Assembly (NCBI GenBank): GCA_031262035.1
Contig: JAISIL010000178.1
Span: forward strand, 1-38,591
Direction of reading: 5' to 3'
DNA: 38,591 nt
Source of the DNA: Spirochaetaceae bacterium
Lineage (GTDB): Bacteria; Spirochaetota; Spirochaetia; Treponematales; Breznakiellaceae
In this document: in pieces, positions 4,492 through 20,037 of the stretch
Layout of the letters: every line of letters begins with the position of its first letter
How positions within the stretch are numbered: the first letter of the stretch is position 1
Notes under the pieces: generated by a model
Database searches by the model: none
Told to the model about the DNA's origin: nothing
The model's input: only the letters and a program-made list of their open reading frames with translations
Position numbers and translations under genes: made by a program

Positions 4492-7400
4492 ATGAAAAAG
4501 TTGCTTTCCGGAACGCTATGCTTGTTGACTCTGGCTTTTATATGCATCTTGTGGAGTTGTAACCCGCTTTTGACTCCTCTTCCCCAGTCCGGGGAAGAGG
4601 ACCGGCCCGGATATTCCGGGCAAGGCGGCATACCTACAGGCATAGTGTATTTTCCGGAAGGCAGCGATACAGGGACACTGTCCCTCACGGTGGTCGAGCC
4701 TGTCGAGACCACCCGCTCTGTGGTTTCGACAGGCTCAACCACCGGGGGGCGTGCACTTGTCGGCGCCGGAGCAGACGATATTAAATCCGGCGACGGGCTG
4801 CGCACGCTCTTTCAATTGATTGCCATAGATATGGCAGAGAAAACAAAAATATGGGACTTCGACCAGGTGGAATTTTCCACCGGCCAGAGTTCCTGCGTCC
4901 TTAAAATGACCGTGCAGAAAAACCACAACTACCTGATACTGGTGCTTTCCGGCCACAAGGGAATGGCAGCAGAGGGAAACACCCTTCTGGCCTCGGGCTA
5001 CACGATGCAGACCATGATACCGGGGAAGGTGGTAACAATACAGATGACTCCGGTGATTGTGGACGCAAAGGTGGTCTACGGCGACCCTGGCACCGGCGGC
5101 ATTGTTGAAGCTCCGGCGGGCCAGACATCGGTGGTGCAAACATCGAGCAGCGCATGGACAGCACAATTCCGTGTGGGCAGCAGAACCGAGACCATTGGTG
5201 GCACAGAAAAAGTATCAGGCGACGGGCTTGAGGCTCTGCGCTTTGTGGAACATGCCCTTGCCAATAGTGGCGCAAGCGAATGGTGGGGCGATGGGCCCTT
5301 TACCGCAGTCAGTAGTTCCGTGGCCTTTACGGGCAGGGTAAATGGCGGGGCAACAAGTGTCATTACCGCAGTTGACAACGGCAGTGACCCATTCACCGCC
5401 GACACAAGCGACGGCGTCCACCTTTCCGCTGCAATCGGGGAGCCGATTGCAGACCTCGTGCTTTCAGATATTGATACAAACACAATATATTCTTTTGACG
5501 GCTCGGTGCAGCTCAACATCGGCTACCGCCCCTTCGGCAAGAGTGCTGCATCCTGGTCAGACTTCACCGACTTCCAGACCCCGCTCGCCTCTGCAAGCGA
5601 CAGCGACATACCATTGTGGGTGATTCGCAACGGGCTGAACGACAGCGAGCAGACAACGGGCACCGGTTTTGACGGCTTCGACGGCAGCGACACAAACGGC
5701 GGGGTGCCGGTGAGTTATGAAACACCACCCGGCTTCACTGTCCGAGGCAAAACCGTCATCTACAATGAGCCTCAAGCCTACCGCCTGTGGACAAACATGT
5801 ATGTGCAGGAGAATTTACTGGCCCATTTTGACGCTATAAACAATACGGGAAGCGGACACACAACTAACTTGAGTGATGGCTGGCAGGATTTGGTCGGCAC
5901 ATACTTTGGAAATGGGGGGAAAGCAATTCTGGGCGCGGATGAAAACCGGATAGCAATTCCGGGTGCAGATGGTATCGTATGGGGTAATACCTATTTGGAT
6001 ATTCAAAAAGTACAGGCATCGGTTAAATATCCTTTAATTTGGGGAAGTAGAGCTGGTGTATTTGATACAACAAAAACAATCGAATTGGGTAACACAAAAT
6101 CTGGAAACAGGCTAGTTTGGTTTGGCATGGCCTATCAATTTTTTGACACAGAATTAGAGGGAGCCTTAAACTATTGGTCGGGTGCTTATGGTGGTACTGA
6201 TCTACCATCTGGATATATTGCTGAACCCGGTAAATTCCTAACGAGGTCGCTCAGTGTGGTCAAAGATTTTTGGAATGACCTATATATAAACGGCTCTGAT
6301 AAGTTCACATCACCCAAATCCTTTCTTGATCCAATATCCTCGTATCAACAGACCTATTATTATTCCTATCATGATCCATACGGGACCTCAAAGCCTTCTA
6401 AACTCTCCTGTTTCAGGCTTTATGATGGGCAATTAAGCGCCGAGCAAAGACAGCGAAACGCCTTTCTGGATAACTACCGTTTCAACAATCCCGACGGCAC
6501 CAAACCTGCTCCCACCATATCGCTGTATCAAAACGATATAGTAGTAGCAAGCGAACAGAACCTTGCCATAGTTGACGCCGGAAATGAAACCACGCTGAGT
6601 TTTACCACCAATTCCCTCGTTGCCGGAGATACATACGAAGTCAAAGTCATGAACGGCGGCACAGTGATAAAGAGCCTGGGGACTTTCACCGTGCCGGCCA
6701 GCCCGGGGGATAATGACCCCACCCTGATTGTGGGAACATCCTGGCCGGTGCGGGACTTTGCATATACCGGCAGGGCGCAGGAATGGATTGTGCCGAAGAC
6801 GGGTAACTACAAGCTGGAAGTCTGGGGGGCCCAGGGGGGCGATGACGGCAGCGGCTACGGCGGCCTGGGTGGATATTCACAGGGCATTATCGCACTGATT
6901 GCTGGTGATAGATTGGACATATTTATAGGAGAAAATCACGATACTAAGGGAGGTGGCTCATTTAATGGCGGCGGTATTGGGTGGAGTGAAAATCCTATCG
7001 GCGGTGGATACAACGGCGGAGGTGCCACAGACATCAGGTGGCCCACACCTTACACCATCAACGGCAACCCTGCCAGTGATTCAAGAATAATCGTGGCCGG
7101 TGGTGGCGGAGGGTATGGTGGCAACAACCGTAACGGAGGTTACGGTGGAGGCTTGACCGGAGGCATTGGTGAACAAGGTGCACGCCAGGCTGGTGGTGGC
7201 ACACAGATCACAGGAGGCGCAGCCGGAGGAGTTCCAACTCCTAGTGGTGAGATTCCGGTTGTTGCAACCGGTGGCAATGCGGGTATCGGCGGCAATGGCG
7301 GAGCGAATAATGGTGCCGGCGGCGGTGGCGGCTGGTTTGGCGGCGGCGGCAATGCGGATAATCCCTTCGATGTAGGCAGCGCAGCCGGCGGCTCAGGCTA

Positions 7401-9332: not shown

Positions 9333-12300
9333 ATGAAAAAAATTGTTCGTGGGGCATTGTGCCTTTTGTCTTTGGGTATGGTTTTTGTCCTTTACAGTTG
9401 TAATCCATTGATACTATCGCCGGTTAATGGAGATACTGAACCGGATGCTGTAGATATTACAGATGCTACAGACAGTGCAGATGCAGCAGGCAATACCGGT
9501 AACGGCGTGGTGAGCTTCCCCGAAGGCAGCGACAGGGGAACACTCTCCTTCGTGGTCTCGACAAATGTGGTCTCGACAAGCTCGACCACCGGTGGGCGCT
9601 CGCAGACCAGCACCGGAAGGCGCTCGGCCATCTCGGTGGTCGAGCCTGTCGAGACCACTATCAACAGAGCGCTGGTTGGCGCCGGGGTTGGGGACATACG
9701 CTCGGGCACGAATGTCCGCAATTTCTTTCAACTTATCGCTATCGATTTTGAGGACACCGGCAAGATATGGGACTTTGACGAGAAGTATCTTGGCAGTGAG
9801 CGAAGCGCCATCCTGAAAATGACTGTGCTGAAAAACCACGATTACCTGATACTGATGTTAAGCGGGCATATTTATGATTACGATGCCTACCAGGCTTGCA
9901 CAGAGAACCCCACCTTGCTCGCCTCGGGCTACGCAAGCAAAACCGTGATACCGGGCGATATCGTAACAATACAGATGACGCCGATCATCGTGGACACATC
10001 GTTCTATTCGGCGCTGAAAGATGCCGATTCTCCCGGGATGGGCACGGTTGATGCGACGACAGGCGGCAGGGCGATCCTCGATCCACTGTATAGCGACTGG
10101 ATAGCCCGTTTCCGCATTGGAGCCGGCCTGGAAAATGGCACTGTTGTAGGCGACGGCCTTAAAACCCTGCGCTTTGCAGAGTATGCCCTGGATAACTCAG
10201 GCTCGAGCGAATACTGGGGCAGCGGGACACTCAGCACCGTTAGCGACAGCGACATCACCTGGGCGAAATATACGGGGACTACGACAGGAAGCACATCAAT
10301 CGACACGATTTCCGGCACAGTGAGCGCGGACGGCACTGCGGTAATTGATTTGGCGGGCAAGTTGGAGGAAAGCGATGGCGGCACTGTTCAGTTCAATCTG
10401 GGCTACCGGCCTTTCGGCAAGGACTCCGCCGCCTGGGCAGACTATGCGGACTTCCAGACTGTGCCGGCCACTGCGCCTACAAGCGACGCCGATGTTCCCC
10501 TTTGGATAATCCGGAACGGGCTGACTGACGATGCGCAAGACAGATTCACTGATTTTGCCGATATAGCAGCCCCAGGCAACGGCGATGGCAGCGTGCTGGT
10601 GCAGTATGGGATTCACTACCTCGATCTGGCAGATGATACTCCTTTTGACAGCAAGGGTATTTCCAAGGGATTATGGGAATATAGCGGGGCCGATGGAACA
10701 GACGGGGAAGGCATCTACAGCATTAAAAGCGATATCCATATCAGAGTTATCAACAGCACGGTAAGCCGTCGCATCGTGATAAACAATGACCAGACGGCCA
10801 ACCTGCTCTTGGACAACGCCAGCATCGACCTGGGCGGAACCACCGTGGCAGGTTCCCCGATAAGCCTGGGCGCAGGGTCGTACCTCACCCTGAACCTGGC
10901 AAGCGGCACCACCAACACGATGACTGCGGCTTCGGGGGAGCATCTATGGTCTGCCGGTATACAGTGTACTCAAGGCACATCGCTTACCATTAACAGTTCA
11001 GATGCAACAGGTGTTCTTTATGCCAATGGGGGCAGCAGCACAGACGTTTTGGATAACAATGGCGGGGCCGGTATAGGCGGCTCGGGGACCAGCCGCAATG
11101 CGGGTTCTGTAAGCGGCACTATCAACATCAAGGGCGGCACGGTAAGGGCTGCAGGCGGCCATACCGGCGCGGGTATCGGCGGCGCAAAGGCTAGTAACGG
11201 GACAATAAACATTACAGGCGGTGTAGTGTATGCCACATACGTAAACGGCAGTGGAGGCGGTGCAGGCATAGGCGGTGGAAACGGCGGCGGAGGCGGCATC
11301 ATCAATATCGGCGGCACAGCGCTGATTAAGGAAGCAAGAGGCGACGGCCACGGCGCAGGCATAGGCGGCGGATATACACAAGCAGGCGGCAACATCACCA
11401 TCAACGGCGATGCGAAGATTGAACTGGCGCAGGGCGGTGGCGCTGGCGCTGCGGGCATTGGCGGCGGGCATAACGGCGGCGGCGGCGGCACCATTATCAT
11501 CGGCGGCAATGCGGTGGTTGATCTGGCACAGGGTGGTGGCACAGGCGGCGCGGGCATTGGCGGCGGGCATCCGAGTGGCGCCACGGGTGCTATTACTATA
11601 GGCGGCTCGGCTGTTATCACGGCAGCCAGAGGCGGCGCAAGCAGCGCGGGTATCGGCAATAGCTATGGCGGCGGGGGCGGCTCAATAAGCATTGAAGACT
11701 CGGCAAGTATAACGCTGGCACTGGGCGGCGATGGTGGAGCGGGTATCGGCGCAGGTGGTGAAGCCACCAGTCCTTCTATTAGCATTGACACCTCAGGCAG
11801 CGTGAAGGCCCAGGGCCAGGGCGGCTATGGAAGCTCCGGCATAGGCGGCGCAAGCTGTGCCTATGCCGCTGACATAAACATCATACGCGGCACGGTGACC
11901 GCTACAGCCAGTGGAGAAGACGGAGTGGGCATCGGCGGCGGCGAACGCTCGCCCGGCACCGTTACCATTTCAGGCGGCACGGTAACCGCCACCGGATCGG
12001 GAAGAGGTGCAGGGATAGGCGGGGGCGGCGGCGTTCCATTCGGTGGCACCGGTCCCCTCGGAGCGACTTGCCCGGTAGCCATCTCAGGCGGCACCGTGTA
12101 TGCCACAGGCGGCGCATCAGGCGGCGCGGGCATCGGCCAGAATGGCAGCATCACCTGGGACGCCTCCACGGTCACCATCACCGGAACGGCGGTGGTCTAC
12201 GCCAAGGGGCCGGACGGCGGTGCAGCTGCCATAGGCGGCGGGCTTAACAGCAAGACCGGCACCATCACCATCGGCACGGCGGGCGGCACGGACAACCCCA

Positions 12301-13506: not shown

Positions 13507-13606
13507 AGATTAACAGCGAACCACGCGAACAAAACAGACAGGTGGTCTCGACAGGCTCGACCACCGGAGGGGCCCGTTCGTGTGGTTCGTGTGGTTCGTT
13601 GTTAAT
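13507..13606. repeat. Composite palindromic element: outer GAACCACGCGAAC hairpin with inner TCGACAGGCTC hairpin
   Basis: The outer arms are related: AACAGCGAACCACGCGAAC on the left and GTTCGTGTGGTTCG-TTGTTAA on the right. Inside is a complete 23-nt hairpin (13542-13564) of the family found in frame in the lipoproteins. The element starts just after the stop of the giant lipoprotein and could act as a 3'-end hairpin. Confidence 0.75.
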
Positions 13607-18806: not shown

Positions 18807-18908
18807 ACAACCACGAATAGCACGAATCGGCTTCGCCGACACGAATAATCTATGATTTGTATTAAATATTCGTGTCGGCGAAGCCGATTCGTGTATATTC
18901 GTGGTTGT
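18807..18908. repeat. Long hairpin element, family CCACGAAT/CGGCTTCGCCG, copy 1
   Basis: Arms of about 40 nt start ACAACCACGAATAGCACGAA and are mirrored at the right end. Each arm holds a mini-palindrome CGGCTTCGCCG, and the loop is AATCTATGATTTGTATTAAA. The predicted fold is a cruciform with two side hairpins. The 30 nt starting at the right end (about GGTTGT-AAATTTTTAAATGATTTT) recur inverted at the left of copy 3. The element lies between the tsaD stop and the promoter of the lipoprotein operon. The rest of the 18698-18930 gap holds only that promoter. Confidence 0.85.
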
Positions 18909-18930: not shown

Positions 18931-20037
18931 CTAATGCCTGTGTTTATACCCCGCCACCCTTGCCGATGCGGTAAGGCTGAGCGGGGAGGTTTCGCCCCTT
19001 TGCAGATACTGATACGCAATGCCTGCAACCATGGCCCCATTGTCGCCGCAGAGGGGAAGGGGCGGGAAGATGCATCGTATATCGCTGTGCCTGGCCAGCT
19101 CGGAACGCAGATAGGAATTGGCCGCCACGCCGCCGCCTGCAACAATAGTCCGCAAACCCGTGTCTTCTACGGCACGCAATAAACTGCGAATTAATATATC
19201 GATAGCTGTTTTTTGAAAAGAGGCTGCAAGGTTGGCAAGGTCGGTACTGTTAAGCGCTGCCCTTCCCGCGACCCCTCCCCCAACCCTTCCCGCAAGGGGA
19301 GGGGTGTTGTTGTAAGCAGGGGGGGGGTTGTAAGCATTAGTAAACTTCCAGGGTTCCCTTGTTACGGCTGTCTTTAGGCCGGAGTATGATACGTCGTAGC
19401 GGCTGGCTCGGATTTCGGGCAGGGGGAAATGGTAGGCCTTTGCGTCTCCTTTCTGTGCCAGTTTGTCGATTACGAGGCCGCCGGGGTAACCAATTTCGTA
19501 GAACTTTGCCACTTTATCAAAGGCTTCACCAACGGCGTCATCGACTGTGGTGCCAAGGACGGTAATGTCATCAAAATCATCAACACGGGCAATAATGCTG
19601 TGTCCGCCTGATACGAGGAGGCCGAGAAATGGGTATTCCGGCGGGGGCGAAGCAGTCTCAGCGTTTGCAGGTTCCAGTTTGGAGGCATACAGGTGGGCCA
19701 GCATATGATTTACTGCAATAAAGGGGAGCTTTCGCGCCCAGGCAAAGCCCTTGGCGAAACAGAGGCCCACCAGGAGGGAACCGAGCAAACCGGGTTCAGC
19801 GCTTGCCGCCACTGCCTGTATGTCCTCTACGGAGAGGGCAGCGTCGCTGAGGGCCTTGCTGACCACCGCATTAATCCATTCGATGTGTTTACGGCTTGCA
19901 ATTTCGGGAACAACACCATTGTAGGCGGCATGGAAAGGAATCTGTGTTGCCACCACATTGGATAAAATCTTTTTTCCGTCTTCAACGATTGCTGCCGAAC
20001 ATTCATCGCAAGAGCTTTCTATACCTAAAACGAACAT
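18931..20037 (-). CDS. tsaD: tRNA N6-threonylcarbamoyladenosine transferase TsaD
   Basis: The 368-aa protein is the ASKHA-fold catalytic subunit that transfers threonylcarbamoyl to A37 of ANN-decoding tRNAs. It starts GIESSCDECSAAIVEDG. The metal-binding His pair is at 111 and 115 (NHMLAHLYA). The family blocks are all present: EPGLLGSLLVG, LVSGGHS, TVDDAVGEAFDKVAK, SYSGLKTAV, NLAASFQKTAIDIL, VAGGGVAANSYLR and CGDNGAMVAGIAY. Between GLKTAV and NLAASFQ there is an odd insert of about 25 residues (NPPPAYNNTPPLAGRVGGG) encoded by a palindromic repeat. No ribosome-binding site precedes the ATG, and TATAAT ends 6 nt before it, so the mRNA may be leaderless. The gene is divergent from a YciO-like gene of the related YrdC fold family. 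Confidence 0.95.
   Translation of the reverse strand: MFVLGIESSCDECSAAIVEDGKKILSNVVATQIPFHAAYNGVVPEIASRKHIEWINAVVSKALSDAALSVEDIQAVAASAEPGLLGSLLVGLCFAKGFAWARKLPFIAVNHMLAHLYASKLEPANAETASPPPEYPFLGLLVSGGHSIIARVDDFDDITVLGTTVDDAVGEAFDKVAKFYEIGYPGGLVIDKLAQKGDAKAYHFPLPEIRASRYDVSYSGLKTAVTREPWKFTNAYNPPPAYNNTPPLAGRVGGGVAGRAALNSTDLANLAASFQKTAIDILIRSLLRAVEDTGLRTIVAGGGVAANSYLRSELARHSDIRCIFPPLPLCGDNGAMVAGIAYQYLQRGETSPLSLTASARVAGYKHRH
19262..19336 (-). repeat. In-frame palindromic repeat inside tsaD
   Basis: The perfect arms ACCCCTCCCC (19271-19280) and GGGGAGGGGT (19296-19305) flank a short loop. Reading through gives TPPLAGRVGGG in TsaD, a peptide not expected in the family. A neighbouring C-tract (19320-19328) encodes PPP. 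The frame is preserved. The outer limits are estimated from where family homology stops and resumes. Confidence 0.7.

Follow-up and report, generated by a model that had tools for sequence, protein, structure and literature searches.

Palindromic repeats inside genes are known from Rickettsia and from a few genomes rich in repetitive extragenic palindromes (REPs). In the sections of PMC3733652 that bear on such repeats, two REP super-families are described, GTAG and CGTC, the latter without a dedicated transposase; intragenic REPs are listed for several species, including the Rickettsia palindromic elements RPE-4 and RPE-6 in R. conorii, and intragenic inserts are suggested to be neutral in linkers or loops. 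Here, we analyzed a 38,591-nucleotide stretch of DNA (the window) on contig C91 of a gut spirochaete genome and a palindromic element that lies within its tsaD gene. This gene, which is counted as essential, encodes TsaD, a tRNA threonylcarbamoyltransferase subunit. We conclude that the insert is very probably a copy of a recently spread, mobile, non-autonomous REP-like palindrome, tolerated in frame in a variable loop of the protein.

Results

A 36-bp palindromic element within tsaD

The genome is a metagenome-assembled genome (MAG) of 3.07 Mb in 215 contigs (99.18% complete). TsaD was identified by a profile search (TIGR03723 at 375.6 bits, cut-off 296.1), and tsaD is the single match across the genome. 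Its nearest named relatives, about 57 to 65% identical, come mostly from Treponema and MAGs of Spirochaetaceae and in some cases from cultured strains. As an initial annotation made from the sequence had claimed, about 25 additional residues (about NAYNPPPAYNNTPPLAGRVGGGVAGR; encoded by 19261-19338) separate SGLKTAV from NLAASFQ without breaking the frame, and this peptide, which includes TPPLAGRVGGG, would form a Pro/Gly-rich loop in TsaD. The SGLKTAV..ASFQ loop spans 45 amino acids (aa), the longest among the 106 of 110 TsaD loci that were measured (4 could not be). The other 105 have loops of 18 to 41 aa (median, 20), and the insert is absent from all of them.

The two 10-bp arms noted in the insert proved perfect and belong to a larger unit. 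Alignment of 40 copies defined an element of exactly 36 bp (consensus ACCCCTCCCCCARCCCCTCCCGCAAGGGGAGGGGRG) with sharp edges, the left neighboring column being random and the right one weakly biased. It has a C-rich head, folds into a hairpin of -19.5 kcal/mol, and contains no stop codon in any of the six frames. The G-run that follows it in the insert may be a decayed inverted partner element.

Further copies had been predicted, and they are numerous. The 75-bp TsaD insert, used as query, found 40 places in its own genome, while an 18-mer gave 36 exact and 7 one-mismatch matches, 43 in total, against none for a reversed-pattern control. Two of the 43 are one locus split over the overlapping contigs C147 and C160, leaving 42 distinct loci. 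Both orientations and several frames are represented among the copies, and inverted partner elements lie near some of them (e.g., L002, L007, L041, and L059 to L061). The family is restricted to this lineage: a 20-mer with at most one mismatch had 43 matches here versus 1 across 391 other genomes of the phylum, and the 18-mer had only one-mismatch matches in 3 of 116 other relatives (two in G019 and one each in G037 and G046). Given this near-absence elsewhere, the element appears to be a recent burst within one lineage. The matches in G019, a member of the same family (L152 and L156), could reflect a second carrier or contamination.

Two other origins of the insert can be weighed against these data. 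Lineage-specific growth of the loop, with the palindrome as a coincidental G+C-rich sequence, would accord with the variability of this loop throughout the 105 other sequences, 10 of which reach 32 to 41 aa. However, the DNA matches the 36-bp family at 40.8 bits and has 42 other matches in the same genome, and the same peptides recur in unrelated genes, e.g., in LipA and in a radical SAM protein that we take to be HemW-like. Such growth is therefore extremely improbable. We give equally little credence to an assembly or binning artefact: the MAG consists of 215 contigs, and a copy lies where C147 and C160 overlap, but these contigs overlap by 119 bp, far more than the length of the repeat, the reading frame and the TsaD homology run on at both sides, and many independent copies exist.

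We then examined the insert at the protein and RNA levels. An AlphaFold model of TsaD, built with 42 sequences, had a mean predicted local distance difference test (pLDDT) score of 85.6 and matched the fold of E. coli TsaD (YgjD; 6z81) with a Z score of 38.0 and a root mean square deviation of 2.7 over 326 aligned residues. Its sole segment below 50 is flanked by helices 219-232 and 264-293, and the insert is thus predicted to lie in a loop, as the annotation had expected. Because a disordered segment in the model coincides with a naturally variable loop, the simplest reading would be that TsaD tolerates the insert.

On the (+) strand, the RNA fold of the insert (-44 kcal/mol; z, -3.45) pairs the C-rich head with the downstream G-run. 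This strong fold on the strand opposite the gene, together with the near-identity of the copies, would suit a hairpin kept in tsaD because it acts on the mRNA or the protein, that is, a selected regulatory or structural element. Yet, on the coding (-) strand, the 75-nt insert folds no better than shuffled sequences (z, -0.42), the copies lie in both orientations and several frames, and identity is equally high outside genes, presumably because the spread was recent. We therefore regard selection of this kind as improbable. Across the window, we counted 12 perfect 10-bp inverted repeats (loops of 3 to 20) versus 0 to 2 in ten single-base shuffles; such palindromes are therefore common in it.

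Table 1. Coordinates of tsaD, its insert, and other repeats in the window
Feature	Position	Strand	Basis or remark
tsaD (TsaD, tRNA threonylcarbamoyltransferase subunit)	18934-20037 (open reading frame, 18931-20037)	(-)	368 aa, interrupted in frame
Inserted codons (about 25), element and flanks	19262-19336	(-)	loop length versus relatives; AlphaFold pLDDT <50 at residues 240-258
36-bp REP-like element copy	19271-19306	(+)	two substitutions from consensus ACCCCTCCCCCARCCCCTCCCGCAAGGGGAGGGGRG; nhmmer, 40.8 bits; 40-copy alignment
Left arm ACCCCTCCCC	19271-19280	(+)	sequence; 10 bp, perfect
Right arm GGGGAGGGGT	19296-19305	(+)	sequence; 10 bp, perfect
G-run, GGGGGGGGG flanked by two TTGTAAGCA copies	19312-19336	(+)	pairs with element head in RNA fold
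Second palindromic family (TTTCGACARGCTCAACCACC and inverse)	4689-4743, 9571-9655, 13545-13565
Third, longer palindrome family (ATTCGTGTCGGCGAAGCCGATTCGTG)	18821-18893 (just downstream of tsaD), 38513-38538

Copies of the element lie in frame in other conserved genes

We surveyed the coding context of the 39 distinct copies from the 75-bp search (L039 was dropped as a duplicate of L041, and L185 to L187 were unscored for coding). Eighteen lie inside open reading frames (ORFs) supported by Pfam, 8 are uncertain, being close to an ORF start or without a clear domain, and 13 lie elsewhere. Hence, tsaD is nothing special among the targets. The genes carrying the element in frame encode TsaD, RarA/MgsA, a KdsB-like cytidylyltransferase, GH95, a 7TMR-DISM kinase, an HD protein, the radical SAM protein, a DctQ-DctM ORF, an ABC permease, a TPR protein, RdgB/Ham1, QueA, an M16 peptidase, LipA, an FHA protein, MutS2, an amino-acid ABC protein, and a sigma-54 activator; some of these names (RarA, KdsB-like, and MutS2 among them) were read from Pfam domains. 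Copies in genes and the 13 others are equally intact (0.50 versus 0.54 mismatches). In one GH95 ORF (L006), matches to the element or its partner occur at four places (95-129, 906-936, 1500-1535, and 1561-1581).

Read by eye, the 18 genic copies use the frame PPLAGGxGGG eight times, PLPQPLPQGEG five times, three other frames five times together, and the sixth never. The two favored frames have the fewest charged residues. For so few copies, this usage is suggestive of filtering by selection. The annotation had gone further and proposed selection for coding-compatible insertion. This does not follow: the TsaD loop naturally ranges between 18 and 41 aa, and the frame is accounted for just as well by insertion with subsequent loss of those copies that did damage.

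Compared with relatives, the gaps amount to 18 aa both in LipA (13 of 13 relatives) and in the KdsB-like protein (9 of 11), and to about 12 to 16 aa in the HemW-like protein. Those of QueA, RarA, and RdgB, read from alignments with solved structures, are larger (roughly 33 to 37 aa), and in QueA a second repeat family makes up part of the gap. The idea of a constant insertion unit of 54 bp was dropped: LipA and the KdsB-like protein gained 18 aa, but the HemW-like protein gained 12 to 16 and TsaD about 25.

Other repeats accompany the 36-bp element

Some copies lie as a dimer within an inverted-repeat element of about 154 bp with ends GGTGCACTTTCTTTTTGGGGGTA (L007, 1413-1566, reverse; L041, 1468-1621), and a possible 9-bp duplication, TCTACCAGT, is seen at the C147/C160 junction. 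These matching inverted ends (11 matches) and the possible duplication at that one split locus are what one would expect of an ordinary miniature inverted-repeat transposable element (MITE) moved by an insertion sequence transposase, the TsaD copy having decayed. However, most copies, that in TsaD included, lack those ends (11 end sequences versus 43 elements), a search for the terminal inverted repeats at the TsaD copy gave no match on contig C91, and no target duplication was seen in its flanks. We therefore judge a MITE origin unlikely, though it keeps some plausibility. A transposase inside inverted composites on C160 was also rejected as a candidate; by eye, the enclosed ORF resembles a sugar-binding protein.

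The second palindromic family, read as VVEPVETT or VVSTGSTT, occupies two lipoprotein-like ORFs and a third place in the window (Table 1). The annotation had set the TsaD insert apart from the lipoprotein insert, and the two are indeed distinct. The second family also lies in frame in LipA (GFDKLNHRWSSLSRP), QueA (HFDKLNDRWLSLSKP), and the HemW-like protein (VVELVETT), each of which also carries the 36-bp element. Stretches similar to the third family are found at L048, L061, L062, L066, and others.

Some relatives of the element on plasmids adjoin DUF559 genes

Among 72,556 plasmid records, 26 contained places related to a 38-bp query, at about 87 to 97% identity. The hosts were Sphingomonas (9), Azospirillum (5), Novosphingobium (4), and others, including Deinococcus, the cyanobacterium Allocoleopsis, and Capnocytophaga (Bacteroidota); no match overlaps an annotated feature, one of the records being unannotated. 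The copy of about 154 bp had no plasmid match. Carriage by phages was rejected, the 38-bp query having no match in 50,697 phage records. The 20-mer occurs in 19 stretches of viral contigs, several with poor heads, and one high-GC viral contig (L245) has two exact copies (5388-5420 and 5634-5666), both within a single open frame; translation in one of the frames gives PSPLPLREGLGEGG.

In 3 of the 13 plasmid regions fetched out of 26, from D. aetherius, A. lipoferum, and Q. citrea, the element lies at most 50 bp from a DUF559 gene, and all three genes were confirmed as PF04480 (DUF559). A DUF559 protein query returned 40 plasmid records, of which 17 were fetched, yielding 14 solitary genes with annotated ends (the ORFs of L340 and L342 are short); L339, a long fused protein, was excluded. 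For each gene, the score was that of the best inverted repeat formed by its two flanks, with neighboring genes as the control. Ten of the 14 genes scored 30 to 208, compared to 0 of 24 neighboring genes (maximum, 24), and the three genes found through the element scored 52 to 71. Thirteen DUF559 genes, these three included, differed from 21 neighbors with a P value of 1.4e-5 (Mann-Whitney). The other four genes were L280, L338, L340, and L341: inverted flanks were absent in Synechocystis (L338), Lelliottia (L340), and P. aeruginosa (L341), and the Sphingomonas gene (L280) scored 16 in a narrow window and 44 in a wider one. L285 and L287, without annotated ends, scored 28 and 22. When flanks of different loci were paired as a control, scores went up to 81 (95th percentile, 44), since repeats of this kind are common to the loci; neighboring genes served as the control instead.

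Most of the repeats bracketing DUF559 genes are C-rich hairpins built like the element, and that of D. wulumuqiensis contains TCCCCCGCAAGGGGGGAGGAGT, which resembles the partner element of the spirochaete. As expected of mobile genes, some DUF559 genes stand alone between operon partners (sufB and sufC, or two transhydrogenase subunits). Two cyanobacterial DUF559 genes (L284 and L288) are flanked by palindromes of the CCCCTAAATCCCC...GGGG type, which suggests that other cyanobacterial repeats may be of the same kind. Viral relatives of DUF559 were also found (L289 to L320).

DUF559 is grouped with the Vsr-like PD-(D/E)XK endonucleases, as set out in a study of VsrA of Caulobacter (PMC12907096). 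Because, in other phyla, solitary DUF559 genes lie between relatives of the palindrome, we hypothesize that such an endonuclease is the best candidate mobilizer, its link to this genome being hypothetical. More tentatively still, and with considerable doubt, the C-rich hairpin repeats of spirochaetes, Alphaproteobacteria, Deinococcus, and cyanobacteria might form one super-family of mobile palindromes, with a solitary gene for a DUF559 nicking endonuclease, enclosed by inverted copies, as its autonomous parent. This would be a second, Y1-independent route for the spread of REP-like DNA, with translated copies carried in the spirochaete proteome.

Discussion

How the element came to lie in tsaD can be pictured as follows. 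A 36-bp unit, made of a C-rich head and a hairpin and often accompanied by an inverted partner, would have spread recently through the genome and reached tsaD. Its persistence there may rest on three features: none of the six frames of the unit contains a stop codon, the insertion adds a net multiple of three nucleotides, and the two helices at the site are joined by a loop whose length varies naturally. Once translated, the copy would form a disordered Pro/Gly-rich loop and be tolerated by TsaD. Insertions that disrupted genes would have been lost. The repeat family, its restriction to one lineage, the in-frame position of copies in many conserved genes, and the variability of the loop were observed; mobility, tolerance, and selective removal of damaging copies are inferred.

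Several points weigh against this account. No empty site was found at the DNA level, the closest relatives being other genera with about 60 to 71% protein identity, and because of this distance the insertion ends were deduced from protein gaps. Net insert sizes differ from gene to gene, and no constant target-site duplication was seen among the copies. The Y1 transposase profile of the REP-associated tyrosine transposase (RAYT) type, PF01797, had no match in the genome, while 5 of 14 control genomes were positive. No DUF559 gene was present in 274,624 bp (229,562 + 45,062) of the genome's own repeat loci, about 9% of the genome. Lastly, the assembly is a MAG.

In this genome, a lineage-limited burst appears to have placed near-identical 36-bp units without stop codons in no fewer than 18 conserved genes, providing natural insertion mutants of TsaD, QueA, LipA, RarA, and others. 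For the movement of intragenic palindromes without a transposase, the bracketing of DUF559 genes offers a concrete, testable candidate mobilizer. In the literature searched, largely without preprints and subscription journals, DUF559 appeared in no title or abstract, only in text, and the letters and peptides of the element were not found, except for one string in an unrelated context.

Comparison with known repeat systems

Like the REPs in the sections of PMC3733652 cited above, the element is a palindromic unit of 20 to 40 bp with inverted dimers, a high copy number, and intragenic members. However, it has no unpaired GTAG or CGTC end tag, its consensus being ACCCC...GGRG, and unlike for GTAG REPs, no match to a Y1 (RAYT) transposase accompanies it in its genome, CGTC REPs likewise having no transposase of their own. 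Moreover, REPs are mainly extragenic, whereas nearly half of the copies surveyed here (18 of 39) lie inside Pfam-supported ORFs. The element thus behaves like GTAG and CGTC REPs but is not a member of either by its tag. With the REPIN/RAYT system it shares inverted pairs of short palindromes and, in the model proposed here, a trans-acting partner gene, although the candidate partner is a DUF559 nuclease rather than a protein matching PF01797. VsrA of Caulobacter, in turn, is described as a mismatch-repair nuclease, and the main text of PMC12907096 does not mention palindromes.

The Rickettsia palindromic elements belong to another host phylum, and we liken them to the element by description, not by sequence. 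Nevertheless, RPE-4 and RPE-6, as presented in those sections of PMC3733652, are likewise palindromic inserts in frame in the conserved genes of one lineage, and insertion of this type was found, by comparison with relatives, in TsaD, LipA, the KdsB-like protein, QueA, and the HemW-like protein.
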